This document shows, piece after piece, positions 1 to 16,375 of a stretch of DNA of 28,276 nucleotides (positions are counted from its first letter, which is position 1; the number at the start of each line of letters is the position of its first letter). The DNA is from a virus. Location: positions 1-28,276 of IMG/VR virus record IMGVR_UViG_3300034045_000035; one strand, written 5' to 3'. The notes beneath the pieces were generated by a model that worked only from the letters and a program-made list of their open reading frames with translations, had not been told where the DNA came from and did no database searches. Position numbers and translations under genes: made by a program.

Positions 1-3000
1 GTATTACTCTCGTAAGCAATTACTTCCTCAGCATCGTCCCATGTTGTGCTATTAAAGTTAGGCTGACGGTGGATAATGCGTTTCCGGCTCTTATCGAAGA
101 ACAGCACGTTAGGCCTACCGCCTGACGCATCACTCCATGTATTTAATACAAGCGCATCGTGATAGTCATACGTTTGATTTGAGTCAAAAGCCCCATCTTT
201 GTCAGTAAAGAACGCGCTGACACCACGAGCGGCAAACTGGTTTGGTTTTAAGGTTCTGTTATTCACAGCCACGAATGAGTAGTGGGTATGTGTGCTAGGC
301 GTAAACGTACTAGGCTTACCTGTTATAGCTGACCAATCGTGCGTGTGATTGCCTGCGGCATAGTTAGTCGCACCTGTACCGATGTTATTGTTACCTGCGT
401 GGTAAAAAGCAGGAGCACCTGTTATATCGCTCCAAGCATGGTTATGTGCTTGTACAGTACTTGAAACAGGCTCATCTGCTATAAATGAATCCAAGTTACC
501 GTAAGTAGTAAATAGGGATGGATTCCCTGCTGTACGTGTAATTACTACACGAAACTGGTAATAGGTTTCGGTAATAGTACCTACTTGTTTTGTTTGGTTT
601 ATAAATATTTGCTCATGGATAAAATAATCACCAGGAGTACTGCCATCAGGCTCTCCAGATAAGTCAATCTGTTCCCAAGTACCTGTAACAGTGATTGCAG
701 CACCTTCAGCAGACCATGCTGACCAATTAGTGTTGTCTGTGGAAGTACGCTTATAGAACTGTACTGTTACTGAAGGTGTATTAGTTGTACCAGGGGTGCT
801 TCTGTAATAGCTGTTTGTACCAGATCCCTGCAAAGACAATGTAATTGTCTTACCGCCGCTGTATATACTGTCTCCAGTTATTTGGAAATCGCCTGTTAAT
901 GTAGAAGCAGAGCCGTAGCTAATTGTACCGCCTGTAGAAGCAGATGATATTAGGATACCTAGCCGATCCCTCAGATCATCAATACCCTCTTTAGTAAAGA
1001 ACTTAGCATCTGTGATAGTGTCGTTCTTTATCTTACCTCGGAAAAATAACTCAGTATTCCCACTAACTTGCTCTACACCAAATATAGGGGCGTTACTGGA
1101 ATTAAATATAGTTAAAGAGTTCGTGCTAGACGTAAGCTCTACACGTTGGCCTGTGGTTGCTGTACGTATAGTTGTACCTGTTATATCACCTGAAGTGATT
1201 GTACCTAAATTAGCACTTAATGAAGACAATGACGTAACAGTTAATTTATCGGCAGAGATAGCACCAGCACTAAGATTCTGTATTAGCGCATCACCATTAA
1301 CCACTAAATTACCATCAACTACTTTATTGGCGGCAATCCAACTAGAAGTGGCAGTATCCCAGTAACGTGTAGCCACAAATGCTGGGCTAATTCCATTGTT
1401 ATATACAGTTACTTCGTCTAGAAGTACTTTTGTTAGTCCTTTAGTAGAGTAATAGCTGTCTATCTCAGACTCTACTGTAGTATTCCAAGATGTCTGTGTG
1501 GTAGCTAAGCCAAATGCTATAGAACCTCTTTCCCCGTCATTACCAGGTTGTCCAGGTTGCCCTGTTTCCCCTTTGATAAGGATAGGATCGCCAGCATCTA
1601 CCCAAGCAGCACCAGAATTTTCTCTGGTTTGTAGCTTCATATAGATGTGTGCTGCAGTAGGTGAAGTAGTCCACCCACTTACACCATCAATACTGAATAC
1701 AAACCGACTTGTTTCACTTTCTTGTACGAGTAATGATGGAGTAGACCATGCTGCTTCTTGTGGGCTTTGCCCATCCGATGTAAATATCCGCTTAGACATA
1801 TACACAGGAAGTGACCCATTAGGTATACCATCTGACCAATCTCCTTGATCTGGCATAGGAGTACCGAAAGAACCGCCTGTGGGTAATTGCCCTCCAGTAG
1901 GTGTAGTAGCAAACCTACCAAAGATATAAGCAGTATAAACAGACTGGCCAGCATTACCATCTTCGCCTTTATCCCCTTTAACGATGTAAGGCTTAGGTAT
2001 GCTCCAACCATTATTAGACCATACACCAGTATTAGGATGCTGGCTATATACTGTTTTTGATATGTAAGTAACTTTACCTTCCTCATAGACTGGTGAGTCA
2101 CTCCATCCTGTATCAGGAGGTGTCTCATTAGCCCCATCAAATGAGCCATTTTGAGGGTAATCTGCTTCCGTAGGTGGCGTAGCAAAGGCTTTGTACACAG
2201 AGCTGTAAAAACGGCCCGTATAGAAGAAATCTATGCCTAACTGGGGTGTGTCGCCATCTGCCCAAGTAACCGTATTGCCATTGACCGTTATACTGTAAGT
2301 ACCGTCTCCATTAGCTGTCACTACAGGAGGGACGGCGTCTTCACCATCAGATACTGTAACAGTACCCCCTGTACTGTCTGTAATAGTGTATGTGCCGTCA
2401 CCATTGTCATTAACAGTTATTGTGGCATCTGCCCCTTTAACACCTGCTTTCGATTTAGATATGGTGTAACGTTTGGTAATAGTCTTACCTGTGGTATGTG
2501 TTGCGGTGAACTCAACAACAGCATTATCACTAGTTAGGGAGCTTACCGAATAGTGTCCATCAGTTAGCCCAATATCCACTGAGATATTGCCACTAACTAC
2601 AGAATACGTGTAAGTACACTCACTAGAGACATCGTCTAGGCCGAGGAATACTTTGAAATAACCATCAGAACCAACAAATGTAACGACATTGCCATCACTA
2701 TCTGCAGATACTGTATGACTCTCATTGGTTAAGTATCCTGACATATTTGCTTCAAAGACAAACTTACTGGGCGTTGACCAGGCACTTCCTGCCCAATTAC
2801 CGCCATTGTCTTTGGTATATGTCCTCTTACTTACATAAGTAACCTCATTACTTGCAGGCGTTTCTGGGTTATCTTTCCACCCACTAGGCAATGTTTCAGT
2901 AGCGCCGTCATAAGAGCCACCTGTAGGTAACTCAATAGTCCCATTAATGGCGATATTCTTAAATACATAACTGATGAACACGCCTTCGCCATCGTAGTAA

Positions 3001-6000
3001 TCAACGCCTTTGGTAGGGATATAGGTGTGTTTTACTGGCGTAGTCCAAGTGCCTGTATTGTCATATACACTTGTACCGTCTACAGCTATAGAGGCTGTGT
3101 AACGTTTTTTAGAAACCCAAAGGAAATTACCTGAGCTTGGTTTAAAGGCGTCATCTTTCCATACAGCGCCTGGCGTACTGTTAGACGCGGTTTTAGGTAA
3201 TACTTCTGTTACACCATCATAAGTACCGTCTATTGGTGCTTCAGGCGCTGACGCGCCTTCCGCATAGACGGTACTTATGTAAGTTCCGCTTAGGCCATCT
3301 GTATAGTCTACGCCTTTTACAGGAGTTTTACCGTCTTTTACCTTAATAAGAGTAACGCTGTCAGAAAGAGCACCTACAGTAGCAGTAACAGTAATACTAC
3401 CATCTACAGCTATTTGATCAGGTGTTATAGTCAATACATTACTTAACGGTGTTGCTTGTGCTACTCCGTTGATGTACCAGACTTCACTACCTAATGTAAT
3501 ATTCTGTGTGTGTAGGATTAAGGTAATGTCATCAGGTATAGCTACAGATTCATCTGCACTTAATTTAAATACTTGGCCTGTTGCTTCTATTCGGATAGAC
3601 TGTGCATTTAAGCCATCTGCTCCTTTAAGGTCTTTAATGTATGTCCATGTAGTGGCGTCAATTTTTTGATAAACTAAATTACCGCCAACAAGGGCATAGT
3701 CACCAATCTTACCTAACTCAGCTCCTGGCACACCAGAATCCAGATAATGCCAAATAGTCCCATCTACGCCATCTCTACCGTCAGAGCCAAAGATCACTAC
3801 AGACCACGAGCCTATTAAATTATCATCACTATCGAAATTACCAACAGCTAGCCATAGTTGTTCTGTGCCTGTAGTTAATCCAGGAGTATCAACCCAGCCT
3901 TGGTTAGATATATCATTGCCTGTAGGTACAGGAGGCTCAGTATTAGATCTCAAAAACCAGAACTCAGTATGCTCGCCTTTTTGACCATCCTCTCCTTTAA
4001 ATAATAAAGGATCGCCCCAAGTAACCCCACCATCGGTAGAGGTTCTAAAATACTTATCGCCTGCAGTGTATGTATCCGACCAATTGCTTACCCCATCCAA
4101 AGAGAACTGCAGTTTTACGTCCTTACCATCAGAATAGTCCACACCGTATTGTGGCGTATAACCATCATTAGTTCGTGTGACTGTAAAAGTCTTTTCAATA
4201 GTGAATGTCTTACCTAATGGGCTGACATAAGTAGCTTCAAAAACCACTCCACCAAAGTGATCAGTGATACCATTAATGTAATAAGAACCATCTGACGTGA
4301 TAGTAGGGGCTACTACATTAAGTTCAGTCCCTGGCTTAACATTAAAAGTACAGTCAGCAGTGACATCTGTAGAGCCATAGTAAACAATAAAATTACCTTT
4401 AGCTTCCGCTAAGGCAGTAGCATCTACATTACCTGATGAATCTGCAGGCAAGTTATGTGATTCATTAGTCAAATAACCAACGACTGCTGAGGAATTTTCG
4501 TATACCTTTATTAGGGTAACAGTATCAATAATACCGTCTGATTCCGCACTAATCGTAATAGTATCTGTACTAACATCGCTTACGTCTAGTACAGCATTCT
4601 CATTAAAATCACCTGAAGTAGTTAGCGGCACTCCTACAGGAACGGTAGACCACGTTACAGCTTCAGTTAAGTTTATTAGTTTTGCTGATAGATTAGCTTT
4701 CTGATTAGCAGGTTCAGGGACACCATCTTTATTGATGTTAAATACGTTAATATCAGAAGTTAGAATCAACGAATATGGCTGATCCCCTGACATTCTTGCA
4801 GGTGTAGTCCATCCTAAAAATGACCAACTTCCACCATCTAGCTCTTTGTAACGTCCTACAGACATCCAAATAACTTCTTTACTGCCAGGAGTAGGTGTTA
4901 CAGGGTCGTCTGTCCAACCAGTTGGTATTACTTCATTAACGCCATCATAACTGCCTGTGCCAGGTAATCCTGGCTGCGTTTCAGACAATGTAAATATAAA
5001 TGACGTATACATGCCTGCCAGACCATCTTTGTAGTCTATACCAGGCTGAGGATCATAGCCGTCTAATCCAGAGAATCTAAATGGCTCTCCCCAAGTAGGT
5101 GTAATCCATGTAGTACCATCATAGTGGTACGTGCCTTTACTAGCCCAAATGTATTCACCTTTATTTGGAGATACGGGATCATCTGTCCATCCGCCTGCAG
5201 GCATTGTCTCATTCACACCATCATAAGAACCACCAACAGGCTTGGCTGGTTTAGTGGCACTATTATGGAATACGAAAGATACGAAGTTACCTACTGTATC
5301 TGTATAGTCCAGCCCTTTGACTGGTGTTTTACCATCTAAGCCACTTAGTCTTACTGGTCTAGACCATTCACCATTTAGTACCCATGTATTAGTGTCTCGG
5401 TCATGTTTATAGGTATTTTTAGAAACCCAAATGTACTCACCAGTTTCAGGAGCTGCTGGGTCATCAGTCCAGCCTCCTGGAGGCATAGTTTCATTTACAC
5501 CATCAAATGTACCGCCTGCAGGTTTAGGTGGCTCATCTGTACTGTTTTTAAATACAAAACTAATGTAGTTACCATTCTCACCATCAAAGTAATCCGTATA
5601 CTTCTGTGGAGTATAGCCCTCATCACCTGAGAACTTAGTAGGATCTGACCAAGCGCCTTTAACCCATGTGTTAGTAATGTCGTTGTACTTGTATACCGCT
5701 TTACTGATCCATACGTACTCGCCTTTAACTGGTGCACTAGGATCATCAGTCCAATCATCGGGTATTACTTCGTTCTCACCGTCATACTCACCACCCACAG
5801 GAACACCTGGTTTAGTAGGGCTATTTCTGAATACGAATGAAGTGTATTGACCGTGTACACCGTCTTTATAGTCTGTACCATAGATAGGAGTGTAGCCATC
5901 AACACGAATAAGTACTGGATCAGACCAGTCCCCATTAGTAATAGTATTACCTTCAAAATCAAGCTCTACTGTACGGCTACGTTCATAATAATCCGCTGTA

Positions 6001-6443
6001 GTCTTAACATCATGCCATTGCGTAACGCCATCAACAGAGTATTGAAATTCTTTGAACCGTATATTGCCTGGTAGCCCATCATTATAGTCAACACCTTTTA
6101 CAGGCACATAACCTTGTTGGATTACTGCAGTATTGCCTTCAGCATCAGTGATTACTACATTACCATCAGCATCTAGAGAAACTGTAGGACTTTTCCCGTC
6201 AGTGCCAGGAGTGCCGTCTCTAAGTGTAATAGAGCCATTACCGCCAGTGATAGTATATGTACCATCCCCATTATCGGTAACAGTAGGTGTATCCCCTTTC
6301 TCACCTTTATTTAATTCAATGTTCTCAGCGATTAACTTTAAGCGAGGTAGCTCTTGGTATATTTGGCGGATGATGTCAAATGATGAGCCAAGGTACTTAT
6401 CAATTGCGCCAATTGTTTCGTTAGTCTTATTATCACAACTCAT
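1..6443 (-). CDS. Giant modular tail fibre / appendage protein (partial, C-terminus beyond window)
   Basis: One leftward frame stays open from the ATG at 6443 to the window edge, giving at least 2147 residues; I checked the frame at both ends and near 1570. It most likely encodes the host-contacting tail fibre or appendage, in the place of N4 gp66. After a short helical N-terminus come collagen-like GEKGDTP stretches (about residues 46-53), repeated NDNGDGTYTI-type segments, four tandem modules of about 93 residues (184-555), and more diverged copies of the same module near positions 3350-1800. Two Ig-like TNESH...ADS segments lie near 4450-4200 and 2740-2470. A GQPGQPG collagen-like run sits near 1550. 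Towards the visible C-terminal side there are HxHxWSDITGxP and HTHDWSAITGKP motifs typical of phage fibre shafts. The start overlaps the stop of the upstream neck gene (ATGA), indicating translational coupling. Assignment as a fibre is firm; its receptor is unknown. Confidence 0.85.
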   Translation of the reverse strand, partial: MSCDNKTNETIGAIDKYLGSSFDIIRQIYQELPRLKLIAENIELNKGEKGDTPTVTDNGDGTYTITGGNGSITLRDGTPGTDGKSPTVSLDADGNVVITDAEGNTAVIQQGYVPVKGVDYNDGLPGNIRFKEFQYSVDGVTQWHDVKTTADYYERSRTVELDFEGNTITNGDWSDPVLIRVDGYTPIYGTDYKDGVHGQYTSFVFRNSPTKPGVPVGGEYDGENEVIPDDWTDDPSAPVKGEYVWISKAVYKYNDITNTWVKGAWSDPTKFSGDEGYTPQKYTDYFDGENGNYISFVFKNSTDEPPKPAGGTFDGVNETMPPGGWTDDPAAPETGEYIWVSKNTYKHDRDTNTWVLNGEWSRPVRLSGLDGKTPVKGLDYTDTVGNFVSFVFHNSATKPAKPVGGSYDGVNETMPAGGWTDDPVSPNKGEYIWASKGTYHYDGTTWITPTWGEPFRFSGLDGYDPQPGIDYKDGLAGMYTSFIFTLSETQPGLPGTGSYDGVNEVIPTGWTDDPVTPTPGSKEVIWMSVGRYKELDGGSWSFLGWTTPARMSGDQPYSLILTSDINVFNINKDGVPEPANQKANLSAKLINLTEAVTWSTVPVGVPLTTSGDFNENAVLDVSDVSTDTITISAESDGIIDTVTLIKVYENSSAVVGYLTNESHNLPADSSGNVDATALAEAKGNFIVYYGSTDVTADCTFNVKPGTELNVVAPTITSDGSYYINGITDHFGGVVFEATYVSPLGKTFTIEKTFTVTRTNDGYTPQYGVDYSDGKDVKLQFSLDGVSNWSDTYTAGDKYFRTSTDGGVTWGDPLLFKGEDGQKGEHTEFWFLRSNTEPPVPTGNDISNQGWVDTPGLTTGTEQLWLAVGNFDSDDNLIGSWSVVIFGSDGRDGVDGTIWHYLDSGVPGAELGKIGDYALVGGNLVYQKIDATTWTYIKDLKGADGLNAQSIRIEATGQVFKLSADESVAIPDDITLILHTQNITLGSEVWYINGVAQATPLSNVLTITPDQIAVDGSITVTATVGALSDSVTLIKVKDGKTPVKGVDYTDGLSGTYISTVYAEGASAPEAPIDGTYDGVTEVLPKTASNSTPGAVWKDDAFKPSSGNFLWVSKKRYTASIAVDGTSVYDNTGTWTTPVKHTYIPTKGVDYYDGEGVFISYVFKNIAINGTIELPTGGSYDGATETLPSGWKDNPETPASNEVTYVSKRTYTKDNGGNWAGSAWSTPSKFVFEANMSGYLTNESHTVSADSDGNVVTFVGSDGYFKVFLGLDDVSSECTYTYSVVSGNISVDIGLTDGHYSVSSLTSDNAVVEFTATHTTGKTITKRYTISKSKAGVKGADATITVNDNGDGTYTITDSTGGTVTVSDGEDAVPPVVTANGDGTYSITVNGNTVTWADGDTPQLGIDFFYTGRFYSSVYKAFATPPTEADYPQNGSFDGANETPPDTGWSDSPVYEEGKVTYISKTVYSQHPNTGVWSNNGWSIPKPYIVKGDKGEDGNAGQSVYTAYIFGRFATTPTGGQLPTGGSFGTPMPDQGDWSDGIPNGSLPVYMSKRIFTSDGQSPQEAAWSTPSLLVQESETSRFVFSIDGVSGWTTSPTAAHIYMKLQTRENSGAAWVDAGDPILIKGETGQPGQPGNDGERGSIAFGLATTQTSWNTTVESEIDSYYSTKGLTKVLLDEVTVYNNGISPAFVATRYWDTATSSWIAANKVVDGNLVVNGDALIQNLSAGAISADKLTVTSLSSLSANLGTITSGDITGTTIRTATTGQRVELTSSTNSLTIFNSSNAPIFGVEQVSGNTELFFRGKIKNDTITDAKFFTKEGIDDLRDRLGILISSASTGGTISYGSASTLTGDFQITGDSIYSGGKTITLSLQGSGTNSYYRSTPGTTNTPSVTVQFYKRTSTDNTNWSAWSAEGAAITVTGTWEQIDLSGEPDGSTPGDYFIHEQIFINQTKQVGTITETYYQFRVVITRTAGNPSLFTTYGNLDSFIADEPVSSTVQAHNHAWSDITGAPAFYHAGNNNIGTGATNYAAGNHTHDWSAITGKPSTFTPSTHTHYSFVAVNNRTLKPNQFAARGVSAFFTDKDGAFDSNQTYDYHDALVLNTWSDASGGRPNVLFFDKSRKRIIHRQPNFNSTTWDDAEEVIAYESN
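4779..5894 (-). repeat. Four tandem ~93-residue protein modules in the tail fibre
   Basis: Residues 184-276, 277-371, 372-462 and 463-555 of the fibre share one pattern: a [YK]xPxxxxDY start, YxSFVFxNS, PxGGxYDGVNExxPxGWTDDPxxP, GEYxWxSK, a W-containing strand, then SGxDG. The copies have diverged at nucleotide level, so this is an old internal duplication of a folding unit. Further degenerate copies occur nearer the C-terminus. Confidence 0.8.
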
Positions 6444-7167: not shown

Positions 7168-9810
7168 TTACACGATGTAGTTGGAGTAGCTATCGAGTCC
7201 TGCATCTAACTGATTATCATAGTCTACTTCCCAAATTTTACTTTCCTCATTATATACCAACGGCACATCATTGCTAGGTTTCCATGCCTTCATCAACGAC
7301 AACATAGATACTATATCAATAAAGTCATCATGTTTACTTTTAAATCCGCCATGTGAGGCTAATGTAAGCTCATTTATAGCTTCCTTGATAAGGGCAGTAT
7401 CCTTCATTTCTTCAGGGAAATAGATCTTACCTGCCTTAAATAACGGAACTACAGTACTGAAACGAGTAAATTTATTAGTACTAGGACGGATACCAGGATT
7501 ATTATTGTTGCCTTCAGATGTTAGTGGGAAGAATATATTGCGTTCTATCATCATATTCTTAATGAATGGTATAAAACCACCTTGCTGTCCAGTAACTTCG
7601 ATACCTACACCAATAGGTTTATACATTTGCGCTAGTCTAAATAGGTCATCTAATGACTTATCTAGTGTCTGTCTTACACAAATACCATCTATTAAGTACC
7701 AACTACCTTCTGCAGAGTAAGCCCATACACCTACTATACTGTAATCTGCACTAGTCTTCTCACTGACTGCAAAGTCAGTAGTAATATACACATTAAAGTT
7801 GTGTAGATTGCGAATTACAGTGTCTCTACTAAACCAACGTATGTCATTATCTTGTATTAATCTGTCATCATCAGACATAATACGTAACATAAGCTCTTGG
7901 TTAAATGTATCTATCTTGCCTTGTAACAATGCTTTCTCGTACTTGGCTTTAACATAGCCATAATCAAAGCGATCTTCCCATGCACCTCTAAATTCTTCTC
8001 TAGTACACGGAAATTCCTCACAAACTGGGAATACATTAACTTTCCATGCACCTGATTCAACCGCTTTATACAGCGGATCTCTCGCATTAAACGGAGTACC
8101 TGACCAAATTATCTTATGTCTTTGTGGGTGTAGAGCGTAATCTATTGCTTTATAGATGGTATCCTCAACACTTGTAATAACAGTAGCAGAACGTGCATCT
8201 TCATCACTAATCAAGTCATCCAGTACAGCTAAATAAGGACGTTGACCCATTTCTTTAGCACCACGAACACCTGTATTATGTGTACGGAAGTAACAATCAG
8301 CTATGAACTGTCTTTCTTCGTTATCTACTGCAATACATTGACTTGGTTCTTGTTCAATAGGAGTAATGGACTCTACAGCCACTAATCGGGTTCTGGGTTT
8401 ATTATTTAAAGCTTTACGAGGTAGACGAAAAAGAGGAAACTCGCTCCATATTTCAACGCACCATGCTTCTGCATGTGAATGTTTTGATATAAATGCTGTA
8501 CCACCCAAAGACCGAATAATACATGCTAAATCGTCACATAACTGATGTGAGCTACTTGTGAAAGTGGTTCGTCCGTTTGCGGAGCAAGTACCGTCTGTGT
8601 CCATTAGCCCCTGAACCAACGCTAAACGCTGTTCAATGCTACTATAGAAATAGCTTTCAGGTATAAACTTTAATTCCCCACGTACATTTAAACCTAGTTT
8701 TACCAACGTCTTTCCCAGTCCTCGGATAGACTGTGTAACTGCGTTTGATCGTGGGTCTTTATACAGACTACCAAATGCGTAAGGAATATGTGTGTGGTAG
8801 TGATGCAACTCTTCAAAATGGCAAGTCAGCTCTACCGAACCACAGTCTTTGCGTATTCTACCATCTCCTAAAATTACACCCAACGTATATGGATCTATCG
8901 GTAACTCAACCTCTGGGTACACCATTGGTTCAACATTACGGACAAACATAGTTCGTTCATTTGATATGTAATCAGGTTTACCTTTTCGTTTACGTTTACG
9001 TGAAAACAACAAAGGCTGTTCCAGTAAGTCTAAAGTAGAGAGAACATAATCTGAGTACTTAGCTTTGTTGTGAAGATTTTCCTTCAACACTACAGGATTT
9101 AAGTGGTCTTCACTTACTTTTAGACATCTCCCGTCTTCTAATTGAATACGGTACATTGGTTTATGAAAAATTTCGCTTTTCTTTGTAATACGTGTGAGTT
9201 TCCCATCTGCACCGAAAATCTCATCACCTACCTGACACTCCCTAATAGTAGTCTTACCGGAAGGTGTAAATAGTTCAGTATCTAGTGATAGTGCTTTTGC
9301 ACCATATCCTTTTACTACAAAATGTTTCCCCTCTATGTTGATAAATTCCCAACGAGTGTCTGTAAATTTGATCTTAGGTACGTAAGTCTGTAGGAATTCT
9401 GAGTTAGCCCAGCGATGTTCCAAGTTCTTACGCATGTTCTTAACACCGTTATCTATACTGTCAGAAACATACATAGCCAAGGGAACATCACCAAAACCAG
9501 GTATATGGCCATATACGCCTAAATACAGGAACAAATACTCTGTTAATGTAGTCTTAGCCATACCACGGCTACACATATTAGCTACATAAGGGTTCTCATC
9601 TACGAAACTATCCAATATCTTACAATGGATAACAGGTGATTTATTCTCTTCTCCTTCTGCCCCATTAACCAACTTAATGAAAGCCAGGAACTCTAAAGCA
9701 AAATCACTAGGGATATAGCTTGGATCTGGGGCATAATTTACTTCATTAAGCCATTCTTCTACTGATTTAGCAGTAGGCGTAAGTCCTGTATTTACATCAA
9801 GTTGTTGCAT
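7168..9810 (-). CDS. Large terminase subunit (TerL) interrupted by an intein
   Basis: An 880-aa reading frame that would give a 540-aa TerL after splicing, a normal size. TerL is the ATP-driven packaging motor and headful or end-cutting nuclease. Walker A variant CSRGMAKTT is at residues 80-88; Walker B LAVLDD is at about 527-532, followed by ISDED. ATPase-domain sequence continues with IIWSGTPFNARDP (coupling motif region). The RNase H-like nuclease domain shows the first acidic residue in YITTDFAVSE and a late acidic pair in KHDDFIDIV. Residues 173-512 are an intein (separate entry), inserted between GYGAK and TGVRG just before Walker B, a highly conserved spot. The start has AGAGGA upstream and lies 3 bp after the TerS-candidate stop. 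It closely resembles N4-like TerL (gp68) in layout and neighbours. Confidence 0.93.
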   Translation of the reverse strand: MQQLDVNTGLTPTAKSVEEWLNEVNYAPDPSYIPSDFALEFLAFIKLVNGAEGEENKSPVIHCKILDSFVDENPYVANMCSRGMAKTTLTEYLFLYLGVYGHIPGFGDVPLAMYVSDSIDNGVKNMRKNLEHRWANSEFLQTYVPKIKFTDTRWEFINIEGKHFVVKGYGAKALSLDTELFTPSGKTTIRECQVGDEIFGADGKLTRITKKSEIFHKPMYRIQLEDGRCLKVSEDHLNPVVLKENLHNKAKYSDYVLSTLDLLEQPLLFSRKRKRKGKPDYISNERTMFVRNVEPMVYPEVELPIDPYTLGVILGDGRIRKDCGSVELTCHFEELHHYHTHIPYAFGSLYKDPRSNAVTQSIRGLGKTLVKLGLNVRGELKFIPESYFYSSIEQRLALVQGLMDTDGTCSANGRTTFTSSSHQLCDDLACIIRSLGGTAFISKHSHAEAWCVEIWSEFPLFRLPRKALNNKPRTRLVAVESITPIEQEPSQCIAVDNEERQFIADCYFRTHNTGVRGAKEMGQRPYLAVLDDLISDEDARSATVITSVEDTIYKAIDYALHPQRHKIIWSGTPFNARDPLYKAVESGAWKVNVFPVCEEFPCTREEFRGAWEDRFDYGYVKAKYEKALLQGKIDTFNQELMLRIMSDDDRLIQDNDIRWFSRDTVIRNLHNFNVYITTDFAVSEKTSADYSIVGVWAYSAEGSWYLIDGICVRQTLDKSLDDLFRLAQMYKPIGVGIEVTGQQGGFIPFIKNMMIERNIFFPLTSEGNNNNPGIRPSTNKFTRFSTVVPLFKAGKIYFPEEMKDTALIKEAINELTLASHGGFKSKHDDFIDIVSMLSLMKAWKPSNDVPLVYNEESKIWEVDYDNQLDAGLDSYSNYIV
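8275..9294 (-). other. Intein with LAGLIDADG homing endonuclease inside TerL
   Basis: 340 residues (TerL 173-512) bounded by ALSLDTELFTPSG at the N side and YFRTHN followed by Thr at the C side; removing them joins GYGAK to TGVRG. Block A is ALSLDTE, with Ala at position 1 instead of Cys or Ser. Block B is DGRCLKVSEDHLN, with the usual His. Block F is QCIAVDNEERQF, with Cys at the F:4 position. Block G is THN with Thr as +1 residue. The endonuclease part has two LAGLIDADG motifs, LGVILGDG (about 310-317) and VQGLMDTDG (about 399-407), each with its catalytic acid, so homing activity may be intact. Ala1, F:4 Cys and Thr+1 fit class 3 inteins, but the class 3 Trp at B:12 is Asn here. Splicing is inferred, not shown. 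Confidence 0.92.
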
Positions 9811-11388: not shown

Positions 11389-11407
11389 CCTGCTGGCGCA
11401 GGCGTTG
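11389..11407 (+). promoter_or_regulatory. Putative hairpin promoter 1 (TGGC loop), early unit A
   Basis: CCTGC-TGGC-GCAGG (11389-11402), followed after four bases (CGTT) by GG at 11407, the predicted start. The layout (5-bp stem, small loop, 5-bp stem, 4 nt, purine start) resembles N4 vRNAP promoters, though those have 3-nt loops. The predicted transcript starts with GGCA-ATAA-TGCC, a second small hairpin. The leader would be 32 nt. Confidence 0.5.
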
Positions 11408-11438: not shown

Positions 11439-11591
11439 ATGCGTAAGTGTTGGGCTTTATTTTGGGAGACGGCGTTTAATGTATTGACGTCGCTCTTCTA
11501 TTTAAGTGAGGCTGCTAAGTCGGCCTCGCGTGAGTTGACGGAGTCAGATGATTCTGATTCCGAAGATATACGTAAAGAGCTCCTGAAATAG
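11439..11591 (+). CDS. Small early protein, 50 aa (unit A)
   Basis: ATG at 11439 with an ideal AGGAGG 8 nt upstream; stop TAG at 11589. The product starts MRKCWALFWETAFNVL and has an amphipathic or hydrophobic first half (residues 5-22), then a charged half with a Ser/Asp-rich stretch (ESDDSDSED, about 35-43) and RKELLK at the end. It is the first rightward gene, alone between a TGGC-loop hairpin and a strong terminator whose stem includes its stop region, so it should be expressed very early. I do not recognise a family. Small early N4-like proteins often target host functions, but nothing here shows which. The coding sequence itself contains two hairpins, GAGGCTG/CGGCCTC and GAGTCAGA/TCTGATTC. 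Confidence 0.7.
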   Translation: MRKCWALFWETAFNVLTSLFYLSEAAKSASRELTESDDSDSEDIRKELLK

Positions 11592-11606
11592 GGGCTCTTT
11601 TTTTTT
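11574..11606 (+). terminator. Intrinsic terminator of early unit A
   Basis: 10-bp stem (11574-11583 with 11591-11600, one G-U), 7-nt loop, followed by a nine-T run starting inside the stem's 3' side. The stop codon of the 50-aa gene lies in the loop and stem. Confidence 0.9.
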
Positions 11607-12029
11607 ATCCCATACACACACAAGAAGATATTACCTCTAAATACTCTTATAAGCTCCTGTGAGCCATTCTAAGCGTATTTCTCTTATCACCCTATACAAT
11701 CACCTTATTTACCTCTAATAAGCTCTTATATCGCTATTCATTAAGTTATTCATGCAGCCGAGCGTATAGCGAGGCGTACACAAGACACAGGGAAGATAGA
11801 ACAATCAAGAAGAGGAAGAAGGGCGTATAAATTACTGTGTTTTGTGGTATAGGCTATTGTGTGTAAGTTACTGTGTATAAATTATTACGTATAAGTATGC
11901 TGATTATATAGGTAAAAATATAGGTAAAAGTGACATAAGTCATTGATTTACATAAGTAAAAGTAAGCTAAGTTATTGATTATTATATTCCTTAATCTACC
12001 CTAAGCATTAACACCCACCTCTACTTTAC
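11607..12029. other. AT-rich non-coding region with short direct repeats
   Basis: No gene or credible small ORF seen. Repeats: GTRTAARTTAYTRYGT-type units at 11825, 11861 and 11875; a 12-bp tandem TATAGGTAAAA[A/G] at 11907 and 11919; TAAGTYATTGATT at 11936 and 11968. It could hold a terminal-repeat boundary, an origin or regulatory sites. Confidence 0.5.
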
Positions 12030-12050
12030 ACCTGTTTGACAACAGGTTTA
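12030..12050 (+). promoter_or_regulatory. Putative hairpin promoter 2 (TGAC loop), early unit B
   Basis: Perfect 7-bp stem ACCTGTT/AACAGGT around loop TGAC (12030-12047). Counting from the inner 5-bp stem plus four bases puts the start at A12050. A second hairpin follows at once (GCTATGCC/GGTATAGC, 12055-12075 region). A TTGACA overlaps the loop, but no good -10 lies 16-18 bp downstream. Confidence 0.5.
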
Positions 12051-12106
12051 GGAAGCTATGCCATTTAGGTATAGCTATTTATTAACAATCTATATATGGA
12101 GGATTT

Positions 12107-12424
12107 ATGGAATATATAGATATTGACTTGTACGGTAATAGAACTACCGTAATCAAGTCTAAGGGTGGTAGGGCGGATGTCCTGCCATCCGTAAAACAGC
12201 TAGTGGCTCATCTAAGAGCTACTAGGATGTATGCCCAAGAGTGGGGAGAAGACGAATGGCACCATGATGCCCACTCAGGCCAATTGTTCCTAGAGTCTGG
12301 AGTAAGACTCCGGACTTTATTTGAAATGACTAGCCGTATATTTATAACGGCTAGCCAGGAGAAATTGTGGGATCGTGTATTCGATTCCGCAGTTTCACAC
12401 ATTCAGTACGGCTCATATAAGTAG
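12107..12424 (+). CDS. Early protein of unknown function, 105 aa (unit B), very hairpin-rich message
   Basis: ATG at 12107 with GGAGG 6 nt upstream. The soluble product starts MEYIDIDLYGNRTTVIK, has a Trp/His-rich centre (EWGEDEWHHDAHSG, about 46-59) and an aromatic C-terminus. No membrane segment or known motif is seen and I do not recognise a family. It lies alone between a TGAC-loop hairpin and a long terminator. The coding DNA carries eight successive inverted repeats: 12125-12159 (13 bp with a 2-nt bulge), 12174-12191, 12200-12225 (10 bp), 12239-12276, 12294-12316 (10 bp, 3-nt loop), 12330-12354, 12367-12390 and 12401-12435 (13 bp across the stop codon). Such density is far above what I see in the later genes and implies selection on RNA or single-stranded DNA structure. 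Confidence 0.8.
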   Translation: MEYIDIDLYGNRTTVIKSKGGRADVLPSVKQLVAHLRATRMYAQEWGEDEWHHDAHSGQLFLESGVRLRTLFEMTSRIFITASQEKLWDRVFDSAVSHIQYGSYK

Positions 12425-12440
12425 CCGTACTGGATTTATT

Positions 12441-12488
12441 AAAGAGACACCATCTATGCAATAAGCATGGGTGGTGTCTCTTTTTTTT
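12441..12488 (+). terminator. Intrinsic terminator of early unit B
   Basis: A 19-bp, nearly complete stem (12441-12459 with 12465-12483), loop AATAA, then a T-run to 12488. The architecture matches the unit C terminator at 12749 closely (same AAAG[A/G]-CAC start and ATTAA/AATAA loop), suggesting duplication. Confidence 0.92.
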
Positions 12489-12492
12489 ATAA

Positions 12493-12515
12493 ATGAGCAT
12501 CTGGCGATGCTCATA
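12493..12515 (+). promoter_or_regulatory. Putative hairpin promoter 3 (TGGC loop), early unit C
   Basis: Perfect 9-bp stem ATGAGCATC/GATGCTCAT around TGGC (12493-12514). Inner 5-bp stem plus four bases predicts a start at A12515. The ATG is 27 nt downstream. It follows directly after the unit B terminator. Confidence 0.5.
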
Positions 12516-12541
12516 GATGATAGATAGCTGGAGGGTTTACT

Positions 12542-12733
12542 ATGTTATCTATATTTGATACTTCTTCAGGTGAAGAAGTAACCTTAGAGGCCATTGGTAA
12601 TGGCCAATTCCCGCAACAATTGTGGGAACTAAGGGACGATAAAGGCAATATAGCTTTTGTCGATACATTCACTCTTGGGTACTATGCCCAAGAGATACTT
12701 GATGGGTCTTTTGACTTTAACATACCGTTTTAG
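12542..12733 (+). CDS. Early protein of unknown function, 63 aa (unit C)
   Basis: ATG at 12542 with GGAGGG 6 nt upstream. The product starts MLSIFDTSSGEEVTLEAIGN, is acidic and soluble, and contains LWELRDDKGNIAFVDTFTLGYYAQEIL-like mixed beta/alpha sequence in its second half. No recognised family. It is a single-gene unit between a TGGC-loop hairpin and its own terminator. The coding region also carries consecutive inverted repeats: 12559-12580 (9 bp, loop AGGT), 12589-12605 (7 bp, loop GGT), 12608-12628 (9 bp with one G-U, loop CAA), 12641-12658 (weak) and 12672-12694 (8 bp). Confidence 0.75.
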   Translation: MLSIFDTSSGEEVTLEAIGNGQFPQQLWELRDDKGNIAFVDTFTLGYYAQEILDGSFDFNIPF

Positions 12734-12748
12734 TTAAAAGATCTATCT

Positions 12749-12797
12749 AAAGGCACAGTATCTATACATTAAGTATAGGTACTGTGTCTTTTTTATT
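12749..12797 (+). terminator. Intrinsic terminator of early unit C
   Basis: Stem 12749-12767 with 12773-12791, loop ATTAA, ending in a T-run. Sequence and shape are closely related to the unit B terminator. Confidence 0.9.
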
Positions 12798-12853
12798 TCC
12801 ATACACAGATAGTATTCCATAGCAAATCATAGTTATTAATTATGGTTTGGTAT

Positions 12854-12875
12854 AAAGATACTGTCGTATCTTTTG
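12854..12875 (+). promoter_or_regulatory. Putative hairpin promoter 4 (TGTC loop), early unit D
   Basis: Perfect 8-bp stem AAAGATAC/GTATCTTT around TGTC (12854-12873). After the inner GTATC come TTTT and GG at 12875, which is how I recall N4 promoter P2 (5-bp stem, 3-nt loop, TTTT, GG). The predicted transcript begins GGCAAC and folds into a second hairpin, TTGGCAAC/GTTGTCAA (12873-12892). The GGCAA start is shared with unit A. Confidence 0.55.
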
Positions 12876-12928
12876 GCAACATGTGTTGTCAAGTCTTATT
12901 AATTAATTTAGCTACTAGGAGAAACATC

Positions 12929-13210
12929 ATGGCTATTATCAAAGAAACTTCAGCTCAAACAACTGGCCCACGTAAAGTCAGCAAATTTGTGAATATTCAC
13001 CTGTTAAATAAATCAGGTGAACCAGTGTCCCAAATCGGGGCAATCCTTGTATTTGAGGGTGAAAAGCCCTCGAAATATATGCAGGCATTGCTCGATTTGG
13101 CTCAAGAAGAACCGAACCGAATTTCTGAAATTCGTTGCGGTATTAGTATCAGGGATAATACCCCTGATAATACCAAAGTCGACCTAATGAATGAGTTAGG
13201 TCTACTTTAA
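12929..13210 (+). CDS. Early protein of unknown function, 93 aa (unit D)
   Basis: Start set at ATG 12929 because AGGAG lies 7 nt upstream; an in-frame ATG at 12842 would place the promoter hairpin inside the gene. The product begins MAIIKETSAQTTGPRKVSKF, with a basic N-terminus, then beta-rich sequence (VNIHLLNKSGEPVSQIGAIL), a helix with LLDLAQEEPNRI, and an acidic end. Conserved-looking but not recognised. It is the last of four single-gene early units and lies directly before the RNA polymerase genes. Inverted repeats cover much of the message: 12996-13021 (8 bp), 13048-13079 (bulged, about 12 bp), 13111-13141, 13139-13174 (13 bp with bulge) and 13175-13208 (12 bp with one mismatch, including the stop). 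Confidence 0.8.
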   Translation: MAIIKETSAQTTGPRKVSKFVNIHLLNKSGEPVSQIGAILVFEGEKPSKYMQALLDLAQEEPNRISEIRCGISIRDNTPDNTKVDLMNELGLL

Positions 13211-13216
13211 CAATTA

Positions 13217-13250
13217 GCCCTATAGCAGATGCTATAGGGCTTTTATTTTA
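13217..13250 (+). terminator. Intrinsic terminator of early unit D
   Basis: Perfect 10-bp stem GCCCTATAGC/GCTATAGGGC (13217-13226, 13231-13240), loop AGAT, then TTTTATTTTA. Transcription of the RNA polymerase genes must read through it or start in the 30 bp after it. Confidence 0.88.
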
Positions 13251-13272: not shown

Positions 13273-14070
13273 ATGAATATCCAAATAGAAATAAAGAAAC
13301 TAGAACAAGTCATTATAGAAGATACTTACGGTAAACATAATATACGTAAGTATCTAAAATTAGCATTAAGGGATTACTTTGATAATCACCCTAATCAATT
13401 CATACCTCAAGATAGATATGAGTTGTATGTAACCAATATTTTGTTACTAACAATAGACTATCCGTCTGTGTTAGTTACATCTCTACTAGGTGTTGTAGCT
13501 CAACAATTAGACATGGAGTATAACCAAGCTCTATGTACTGTATTAGATGAGCTACAGCACCTTGAATGTATAGATATTTACGATAGTGAATATCCATACA
13601 TCATTCCTAAAATCTCATTACAGGATGAGATTATTGAGTATATCAAGTCCAAAGAATATCTACCGCCTATGGTGTGTAGACCAAGACTTATCTTAAAGAA
13701 TACTGATGAACCTTACTTAACCAAACGTAAGGGTTCAGTGATTCTAGGTGATTCATTTAATCATCATGACAAGCCTCTGGCATTAGATGTATTAAATATA
13801 TTGGGCAAAGTCCAACTGTCGTTGGATGAGGATATTTTATCTGTACCACGGGATAATCCCGATGATGATGAAATGCTAGCCATATTTGATGCTACGTCTG
13901 CGTACATGGCATTAGATATTGTGCATAAATATGATAACACTTGTTATCTGCCTTGGAAGTATGACAAACGAGGCAGAGTATACAGTCAGGGCTATCATAT
14001 TAACATTCAGAGTGATGCGTATAACAAAGCTCTGATTAACTTAAATAAACCTATTACTTTAGAGGACTAA
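13273..14070 (+). CDS. Phage RNA polymerase subunit 1 (N-terminal half of a split T7-type polymerase, N4 gp15-like)
   Basis: 265 aa, close to the length I recall for N4 gp15 (about 269). Together with the 417-aa protein encoded at 14660 it should form the heterodimeric RNAPII that transcribes middle genes. Near its C-terminus, PWKYDKRGRVYSQG (about 227-240) matches the T7 polymerase DxRGRVY segment that lies before catalytic motif A; the catalytic aspartates are on the other subunit. The rest is helical with no membrane segment. GAGG precedes the ATG by 7 nt. The early coding DNA holds an 11-bp inverted repeat (13320-13355), and a TCCAAC-TGTC-GTTGGA hairpin lies at 13811-13826. Two small genes separate it from its partner, unlike what I recall for N4, where the two are neighbours. 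Confidence 0.88.
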   Translation: MNIQIEIKKLEQVIIEDTYGKHNIRKYLKLALRDYFDNHPNQFIPQDRYELYVTNILLLTIDYPSVLVTSLLGVVAQQLDMEYNQALCTVLDELQHLECIDIYDSEYPYIIPKISLQDEIIEYIKSKEYLPPMVCRPRLILKNTDEPYLTKRKGSVILGDSFNHHDKPLALDVLNILGKVQLSLDEDILSVPRDNPDDDEMLAIFDATSAYMALDIVHKYDNTCYLPWKYDKRGRVYSQGYHINIQSDAYNKALINLNKPITLED

Positions 14071-14072
14071 TT

Positions 14073-14462
14073 ATGACTACTGCAACTACTATTTATCTAT
14101 CTTTAACTGTGGCTTTAGTGATTATATTATTTATCAATTACTTAGGTAATAAGAAGTTACATGAAGCCCAAGAGGAATTTGGGCTACATCTGGATGATAG
14201 TACATCAATTCTCAGGGAATTTGAGAAGAAGCTCAAAGCCATCAAAGTGGATGGCAAAATAGATTATTCTCAGTTATCTAGAGATGAGCTAATGGCAATG
14301 GAATATGCCTTAGAGCGTATTAAATATAATCTAGACGAAATGTTTAGTAATGCATTCTATCGCAAGCATAAAGAGGATTTAAATCCTTATATTGCGGTAG
14401 TGTCAATGGGAGTAATGGTGCTCAATAAGGCAATTATGGGAGCTAAGAAAAATGCTGAATAG
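14073..14462 (+). CDS. Membrane-anchored hypothetical protein, 129 aa
   Basis: Starts 2 bp after the polymerase subunit 1 stop. One N-terminal membrane segment (about residues 6-24, IYLSLTVALVIILFINYL) is followed by a mostly helical soluble part rich in Glu/Lys, and a moderately hydrophobic stretch near 108-122 (YIAVVSMGVMVLNKAIM). The short hydrophilic N-terminus makes a signal anchor more likely than a cleaved signal. No family recognised. It overlaps the next small membrane protein gene by 11 nt, so the two are probably made together. Their location between the two polymerase subunits suggests an inserted cassette. Possible roles include superinfection exclusion or membrane association; none is shown by sequence. 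Confidence 0.7.
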   Translation: MTTATTIYLSLTVALVIILFINYLGNKKLHEAQEEFGLHLDDSTSILREFEKKLKAIKVDGKIDYSQLSRDELMAMEYALERIKYNLDEMFSNAFYRKHKEDLNPYIAVVSMGVMVLNKAIMGAKKNAE

Positions 14463-14659: not shown

Positions 14660-15913
14660 ATGGAATCATTTAATGGTTATCAGTATTTATTAATTGCATT
14701 TGCGAATGCTATTGATGGGCTTGATAAATTAAACTATGAAGAACGTATATTACAGGCAGAGGCTATTTTAGCTAAGTCTGATCAAGAGATTGCTGATGTA
14801 ATCAATGATCAAAAAGAAAAGTACTTAGCTTACAAGTATTATCGAGAAATAACGGAATACCGGGACAAAGGCAAACTAGAAACCAATGTATTAATTGGTC
14901 TAGATGCCACTGCTAGTGGTATGCAGTTACTAGGCGTGCTTACAAGATGCGAGCGTACTATGCGCATAGCCAATGTGCTTGATACACCTAACCGAGCAGA
15001 CCCTTATACTCATGTATACAGAGTGTTTAACAGTAAGTTAAACCATAAAGGGACTGCTACTCGTAGTGAGGTGAAACAGGCTATAATGACTAGCTTCTAT
15101 GGTAGCCAGGCAACACCTCGTAATCTGTTCCCTAATCCAGGTGATTTGGAAACATTTCACCAGTCTCTAGCAGAAGAAGCGCCTGGTGCATGGGCTGCTA
15201 GAAACTACTTATTGAGTTTGCATAACCCTGATGTAGACTCAGTATCATTTGTGATGCCTGATAATCACCATGTTTATCTACCGTACAAAAGCAAAGAAAC
15301 ACTGGAGCTATGTGTGGATTACTTGAATAATCCTATTCAGCATCAAGTGGTGATGAACAAACCTGTTCAACGTGATGTATCTATCGCTGCTAACCTAGTG
15401 CATGCAGTAGACGGATATATTGTAAGAGAGCTAGTACGTATGGCTAATATAAGCCAAGGTTCTCTTACAGGCTTAATATCAGCGGTTAAGAGTGAAATTG
15501 ATTTTCGTGTATTACATGAAAACAATGAAACCAAAGTAATTAATCGTATGCCGTCATTAGCATGGATGTACCAAGACTGGTCACAGTTGGCATTAGAAGA
15601 GTTAAGGAATTTTTATCGTTACTTAACCATATTCAATGCAACTAATCACATGCTATCTAAGCATGGGAAGAATAGGCCACATAAGCCAGTATATGACTTA
15701 TTGCCTATACATGATTCATTCTGGATGCATCCTAATTATGGCGATTACACTAGAGCATACTATTCAATGATATTAGCTGAAATTTACCAATCAGACTTAT
15801 TTTCTGATTTAGTATGTCAGCTCACTGATACTGCGCCAGAGAAGTTAATAGAAAACCCTATTAATACTGACGTATTGAATAGTATCTATAACAGTAATTA
15901 CTCAATTTGTTAG
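14660..15913 (+). CDS. Phage RNA polymerase subunit 2 (catalytic half of a split T7-type polymerase, N4 gp16-like)
   Basis: 417 aa (N4 gp16 is about 404 by memory). It carries the catalytic centre of the T7-type fold: motif A GLDATASGMQLL with Asp82, motif B RSEVKQAIMTSFYG with Lys139 and Tyr147, and motif C PIHDSFWMHP with Asp352. A T7-like NLVHAVDGYIVREL segment is at about 245-258. The two aspartates coordinate the metals for nucleotide addition. It should work only with the 265-aa subunit encoded at 13273, and in N4 also needs gp2 for promoter use; no gp2 homologue was recognised. GAGG lies 7 nt before the ATG. Its message also contains several 6-7 bp hairpins (for example GTTTAAC/GTTAAAC near 15027). 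Confidence 0.92.
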   Translation: MESFNGYQYLLIAFANAIDGLDKLNYEERILQAEAILAKSDQEIADVINDQKEKYLAYKYYREITEYRDKGKLETNVLIGLDATASGMQLLGVLTRCERTMRIANVLDTPNRADPYTHVYRVFNSKLNHKGTATRSEVKQAIMTSFYGSQATPRNLFPNPGDLETFHQSLAEEAPGAWAARNYLLSLHNPDVDSVSFVMPDNHHVYLPYKSKETLELCVDYLNNPIQHQVVMNKPVQRDVSIAANLVHAVDGYIVRELVRMANISQGSLTGLISAVKSEIDFRVLHENNETKVINRMPSLAWMYQDWSQLALEELRNFYRYLTIFNATNHMLSKHGKNRPHKPVYDLLPIHDSFWMHPNYGDYTRAYYSMILAEIYQSDLFSDLVCQLTDTAPEKLIENPINTDVLNSIYNSNYSIC

Positions 15914-15923
15914 AGGATTAGAT

Positions 15924-16304
15924 ATGAGTTATCAATATAAAGACCAAGTAAAATTTAAGCCATGCACTAAGCTAATCAGCAGAGGTGCTAAGGGCAGTAG
16001 CTCTTATTGGTATGCCCAAGACCCTGTAAGGACATTGGGTATTAATGTGCCTGTTAATGCCGATACTTATACCAAAGATGATTTGGTAGGTATCAGTGTT
16101 AATGGTAAGCGGCATAATCGGGTAGCACCTGATTATGATTTAATAAAGAAAGCCGCTGATGCTGGTGTCAGATTTGTGACTGATAACAGCTATCATCGTA
16201 ATCGCCCATTTAATGTGGGTGAACGTGAAGTAGCCGCTTTCTTAACATCATTGGGTTACTCGAATGAAGAAACCCCTGATGGTTGTGTGTGGTGGAAACC
16301 TTAA
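15924..16304 (+). CDS. Conserved-looking hypothetical protein, 126 aa
   Basis: Begins 10 bp after polymerase subunit 2 with GAGG at 15912-15915 before the ATG. The soluble, basic product starts MSYQYKDQVKFKPCTKLISR and contains many Tyr, Asn and Arg residues (for example DNSYHRNRPFNVG) and ends in CVWWKP. No known domain, signal peptide or membrane segment. Its position immediately downstream of the polymerase subunit and its basic character would suit a nucleic-acid-binding accessory factor, but that is only a possibility. A strong terminator follows, so it closes the polymerase transcription unit. Confidence 0.75.
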   Translation: MSYQYKDQVKFKPCTKLISRGAKGSSSYWYAQDPVRTLGINVPVNADTYTKDDLVGISVNGKRHNRVAPDYDLIKKAADAGVRFVTDNSYHRNRPFNVGEREVAAFLTSLGYSNEETPDGCVWWKP

Positions 16305-16330: not shown

Positions 16331-16362
16331 CCCTAAGACCTCGCGTCTTAGGGCTTTTTTTT
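16331..16362 (+). terminator. Intrinsic terminator after the polymerase operon
   Basis: Perfect 9-bp stem CCCTAAGAC/GTCTTAGGG (16331-16339, 16345-16353), loop CTCGC, followed by C and eight T. Confidence 0.93.
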
Positions 16363-16375
16363 ATAAGGCTTTTAT

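Follow-up and report, generated by a model that had tools for sequence, protein, structure and literature searches.

Synonymous codon choice tiles the early messages of an N4-like phage with predicted RNA hairpins

In the window analysed here, the complete 28,276-base virus record IMGVR_UViG_3300034045_000035, a short early gene of 105 codons was described by an initial annotation as almost entirely covered by eight consecutive hairpins between 12125 and 12435, followed by a terminator. This raises the question of whether such an arrangement exceeds chance, and if so, whether it belongs to this gene, to its protein or to the place that the gene occupies, and what it may serve. The window encodes both subunits of an N4-type RNAPII, RNAP1 (phrog_2166) and RNAP2 (phrog_2051), the latter matching 463 phage records, as well as the large terminase and late genes on the minus strand and between them a block of short plus-strand genes, indicating that it is an N4-like (Schitoviridae) fragment that includes the early region.

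Hairpin tiling of the early transcription unit

All eight hairpins were recovered by folding (Table 1). The coding sequence of gene 1 folds at -128.7 kcal/mol as compared to -84.3 (SD 5.4) for dinucleotide shuffles, a z of -8.3 with 0 of 100 shuffles as good, and the excess remains when the shuffles preserve the protein and codon usage, or the protein, codon usage and dinucleotides (Table 1). A strand-symmetric stem counter detected 17 strong stems in 12000-13250, whereas 1.1 were expected. The observation of the initial annotation is therefore real, and yet it is larger than described, since what was treated as a property of one gene is a property of the whole early unit, about 11.4-16.3 kb. 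The upstream 50-aa gene, the two early genes that follow gene 1, the RNAP1 and RNAP2 genes and the gene at 15924 show the same excess. With codon-preserving shuffles the z values of the early genes between 12107 and 16304 range from -3.5 to -7.7, whereas nearly all middle genes range from -0.3 to -2.8 (16376, -0.8; 16728, -2.6; 17238, -2.8; 18289, -0.4), and the change occurs at the terminator at 16331-16363. Two long downstream genes reach -4.5 and -5.5, but their excess per nucleotide of 0.03-0.04 is that of the family background. Middle and late genes are near background.

Table 1. Features of the window, with folding z against shuffles keeping protein and codon usage (z1) or protein, codon usage and dinucleotides (z2)
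Position	Strand	Feature	z1	z2	Remarks
3-6443	-	Open-ended ORF of at least 2147 aa			Repeated WTDDP...GEY(I/V)W modules; probable tail or appendage protein
7168-9810	-	Terminase large-subunit gene			Intein-like insert
11389-11402	+	TGNC-tetraloop hairpin upstream of gene A, putative virion-RNAP promoter hairpin (inferred)			Conserved at L002 2727
11439-11591	+	Gene A, 50 aa, early	-3.9 (sense folding)		Overlaps its terminator (11574-11600)
11830-11970		Unexplained short repeats in the AT-rich stretch before gene 1			TATAAATTACTGTG-like and GTAAAAGT-like; possibly near the genome end
12030-12047	+	TGNC-tetraloop hairpin upstream of gene 1, putative promoter hairpin			Conserved at L002 3435 although gene 1 differs there
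12054-12076	+	9-bp hairpin			Likely the 5' end of the gene 1 transcript (inferred)
12088-12121	+	10-bp stem			Shine-Dalgarno and AUG of gene 1 in the loop
12107-12424	+	Gene 1, 105 aa, no known family	-7.1	-7.5	Tiled by the eight hairpins below
12125-12159		Stem			6+7 bp, 2-nt bulge
12163-12190		Stem			12 bp
12200-12225		Stem			10 bp
12239-12276		Stem			7 bp
12291-12319		Stem			13 bp including G.U pairs, 3-nt loop
12330-12354		Stem			Perfect 8 bp
12361-12396		Stem			15 bp
12401-12435		Stem			13 bp over the stop codon
12441-12483	+	Intrinsic terminator of gene 1			19 bp
12493-12514	+	TGNC-tetraloop hairpin upstream of gene 2, putative promoter hairpin			Core GCATCTGGCGATGC recurs at L002 3828 before an unrelated gene
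12542-12733	+	Gene 2, 63 aa, hairpin-tiled	-5.0	-2.1	
12749-12791	+	Terminator			19 bp; compensatory double changes relative to L002
12854-12873	+	TGNC-tetraloop hairpin upstream of gene 3, putative promoter hairpin			Conserved at L002 4181
12929-13210	+	Gene 3, 93 aa, hairpin-rich	-4.7	-4.4	
13216-13241	+	Terminator			11 bp
13273-14070	+	RNAP1 (N4 gp15-like), hairpin-rich	-7.7	-8.5	
14073-14462	+	129-aa early protein, moderately structured message	-3.6		
14660-15913	+	RNAP2 (N4 gp16-like), hairpin-rich	-6.5		
15924-16304	+	Last hairpin-rich gene of the early unit, 126 aa	-4.6		
16331-16363	+	Intrinsic terminator			9-bp stem, 5-nt loop, T tract; hairpin enrichment ends here

The stems in coding sequence are of about 7-15 bp with short loops, staying at or below about 16 bp, whereas terminators reach 19-22 bp, and no terminator-like U-tract follows the coding hairpins. 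As in gene 1, the Shine-Dalgarno and AUG of genes 2 and 3 sit in the loop of a short stem, so that the start sites stay comparatively open within otherwise structured messages.

Perfect hairpins with a TGNC tetraloop occur 7 times in the window, whereas 0.5 are expected. Perfect plus-strand copies lie at 11389, 12030, 12493, 12854, 13811 and 15863; four stand directly upstream of genes A, 1, 2 and 3, and two lie inside the RNAP1 and RNAP2 genes. They are good candidates for the hairpin promoters of the virion polymerase, possibly a variant class of N4-like promoter hairpins, although this is inferred from sequence and position alone, the motif was noticed upon inspection rather than predicted, and the N4 P1 hairpin has a 3-nt loop (PMC12633501).

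Gene 1 itself returned no PHROG or Pfam match, no relative in viral contigs and no confident structural match.

Gene replacement, strand bias and divergence

A viral contig, here L002, the only close relative found, matches the window at 95-97% on both sides, and yet 12086-12748 is replaced there by unrelated genes. The first of these (L002 3511-3801) is tiled as strongly as gene 1, with z of -8 to -9 and an excess of -0.184 kcal/mol/nt, whereas the second (3886-4056) is weaker, with z of about -2. The first encodes a protein of the Csx16 family (PF09652; 77.2 bits against a curated cut-off of 25, E 1.1e-21), a type III CRISPR ring-nuclease family whose cA4 ring-nuclease activity has been shown for family members (PMC12409355) and is only inferred for this protein. 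The site looks like a swap site for accessory, possibly counter-defence, genes. To ask whether the Csx16 protein sequence forces the hairpins we examined 28 other loci with Csx16-like sequence, nearly all cellular and a few overlapping. Their mean excess was -0.012 kcal/mol/nt (SD 0.028), the next highest being a copy in a Methanobacterium virus at -0.089, and therefore the structure follows the location and not the protein.

If DNA were the selected molecule, sense and antisense strands should gain equally, since G.T on one strand is A.C on the other. Sense minus antisense energy exceeded the codon-shuffle expectation with a combined z of -4.3 over 18 early genes, taken from the window, L002 and two further Schitoviridae lineages (L027 and L044), whereas eight middle genes gave 0.04. 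Most of this signal comes from the window and the Csx16 gene of L002, the L027 and L044 lineages contributing little. Counts of G.T over A.C mismatches in strong stems point the same way, 68:34 as compared to 56:46 expected (p 0.011), although the significance of the G.U count alone is modest (p 0.01-0.03).

The initial annotation had named folding energy no lower than in shuffles with the same protein and codon use, or lack of stem conservation among relatives, as grounds for rejection. The former was not seen, as described above. Since coding changes between the window and L002 were too few and stems turn over, counting compensatory pairs was replaced by a simulation in which each early gene received, at random sites, the same number and kind of substitutions that separate it from L002. 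The real relative folds better than the simulated ones for gene A, gene 3, RNAP1, 14073, RNAP2 and 15924 in both directions (z -0.5 to -4.1). Middle genes scatter round zero, most with few changes, the best-powered, 19671 with 45 changes, giving 0.6 and 0.1. Folding energy is thus maintained through divergence while individual stems turn over, and with this single relative clear compensatory double changes were seen mainly in a terminator, where there are three.

Strong tiling is not general among the Schitoviridae. N4 and seven other isolates show an excess of about -0.03 kcal/mol/nt everywhere, early or later, as do nearly all genes of Schitoviridae loci in general, as compared to -0.09 to -0.15 in genes 1-3 and RNAP1 of the window; in T7 the same test gave 0.000 for host-transcribed and -0.011 for T7 RNAP-transcribed genes. 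Family-wide, early genes are only slightly more structured (-0.036 against -0.032 per nt). Yet across about 80 loci the genes with an excess beyond -0.1 were 10 of 719 upstream of RNAP2 and 1 of 521 downstream (p 0.02). Among 88 loci the early kilobases of the window and L002 have nearly the highest stem excess, the one equal elsewhere being a downstream kilobase of locus L041 (10501-11500), made of long imperfect stems in one gene and perfect ones behind it. L027 (1665-3813), with its near-duplicate L039, reaches -0.17 and -0.13 in its first genes, which encode proteins unrelated to those of the window, and strong tiling has thus arisen or been kept in a few lineages. Loci L004-L008, found with a terminase-adjacent gene, were of little use for the early region.

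Possible roles of the hairpins

Based on these data we propose that the early unit is under selection, mostly at synonymous sites, for its messenger RNA to fold into back-to-back local hairpins, and of RNA-level selection in this lineage we are highly confident. The computation shows the excess, its restriction to the early unit, its presence in an unrelated gene at the same place in L002, its sense-strand bias and its maintenance during divergence, all for predicted structures. That the early genes are transcribed by the injected virion RNA polymerase (vRNAP), as in N4, is inferred from gene order, as the fragment does not reach the gene of this giant virion-encapsidated polymerase (about 3,500 aa) and contains no vRNAP gene, and the purpose of the hairpins is likewise inferred. 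The N4 polymerase lacks the module of T7 RNAP that separates RNA from the template, RNA:DNA hybrids form, and host SSB, binding the emerging RNA, restores template use (PMC4496689). In our view each hairpin would close within about 20-50 nt of emerging RNA and prevent the message from re-annealing to the single-stranded or negatively supercoiled template, leaving the RNA free for translation and the template free for reuse. The RNA would thereby do in cis part of what E. coli SSB is reported to do in trans for N4 (Davydova and Rothman-Denes 2003, cited in PMC4496689). This would explain the confinement to the early unit, the RNA-level selection, the indifference to the protein and the absence of U-tracts behind coding hairpins. 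However, N4 itself, in which the hybrid problem was demonstrated, shows no tiling beyond the family background, so that vRNAP transcription alone does not require it, and that the difference depends on how well the host SSB helps is a guess. We therefore give hybrid prevention as the main reason a probability of about 0.45. A further and more tentative thought is that a lineage of N4-like phages has replaced or supplemented SSB-dependent release by a coding constraint, by which genes entering the early cassette, captured counter-defence genes included, become recoded synonymously into end-to-end hairpins because their transcripts must peel themselves off a polymerase that cannot separate RNA from DNA.

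The initial annotation had suggested that the hairpins help displace RNA from the template, protect early mRNA or fold the entering DNA, and its interpretation is supported in part, as the first two remain the leading explanations and the third is disfavoured. Protection from host ribonucleases (RNase E and 3' exonucleases) is a close rival, although as the main reason we consider it doubtful. Early messages are made fast, may be poorly covered by ribosomes and must last until the phage takes over, stems of 7-15 bp would be too short for efficient RNase III cleavage, and the transcripts appear structured from 5' hairpin to terminator. The sense-strand bias fits this view, which explains nearly the same facts as hybrid prevention, and our data do not directly separate the two, and yet middle and late messages of the same phage lack the tiling and most relatives with the same need do without it. 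It is also conceivable, though improbable, that the hairpins hide the first transcripts from RNA-guided immunity such as type III CRISPR-Cas or Cas13, which need single-stranded target RNA. The Csx16 gene of L002 suggests that hosts of this lineage carry type III systems, and only the earliest RNAs are structured; however, no spacer or host was identified, the RNAP genes are structured too, and that stems of 7-15 bp would block such complexes in cells is an assumption.

A function in the DNA, whereby cruciforms or template-strand hairpins help polymerase or SSB loading, packaging or ejection, is very unlikely. N4 promoters are indeed DNA hairpins extruded by supercoiling (PMC4496689), and antisense folding is also significant because perfect stems are symmetric, but the asymmetry favours the sense RNA and the arrays end at a terminator. 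Similarly unlikely is a mutational origin, in which template switching at quasi-palindromes in single-stranded replication intermediates perfects inverted repeats without selection. Many stems are perfect, which speaks for it, whereas the confinement to the early unit, the sense-strand bias and the energy kept by L002 and the window despite stem turnover speak against it.

Relation to known systems and other features of the window

The window shares with N4 the RNAP1 and RNAP2 genes and an early block upstream of them, but differs in the strength of early folding and in the loops of its putative promoter hairpins. Genome-scale ordered RNA structure (GORS) of RNA viruses is likewise a pervasive folding of coding regions beyond shuffles that is not tied to one protein, whereas here it is found in a dsDNA phage, in only one temporal transcription unit, and is made of separate short hairpins. 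Selection on local mRNA folding in coding sequences is similarly defined against synonymous shuffles (for example PMC7063772), the effect here being -0.09 to -0.18 kcal/mol/nt in single genes. Literature searches, restricted to open-licence papers, found no earlier description of hairpin-tiled early phage genes. We consider this a strong case of whole-transcript RNA shape under selection in a DNA phage, limited to one temporal class and independent of the encoded protein. It offers a possible cis-acting answer to the problem of how RNA leaves the template of N4-type polymerases, and a sequence signature for finding early or injected-polymerase transcripts in unknown phages, and suggests a design rule for RNA made by polymerases prone to RNA:DNA hybrids.

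Outside the early unit, the intein-like insert of the terminase large-subunit gene carries a LAGLIDADG-type domain (PF14528, below cut-off) and seems to begin with Ala (GYGAK/ALSLDTELFTPSG) and to end RTHN before Thr.
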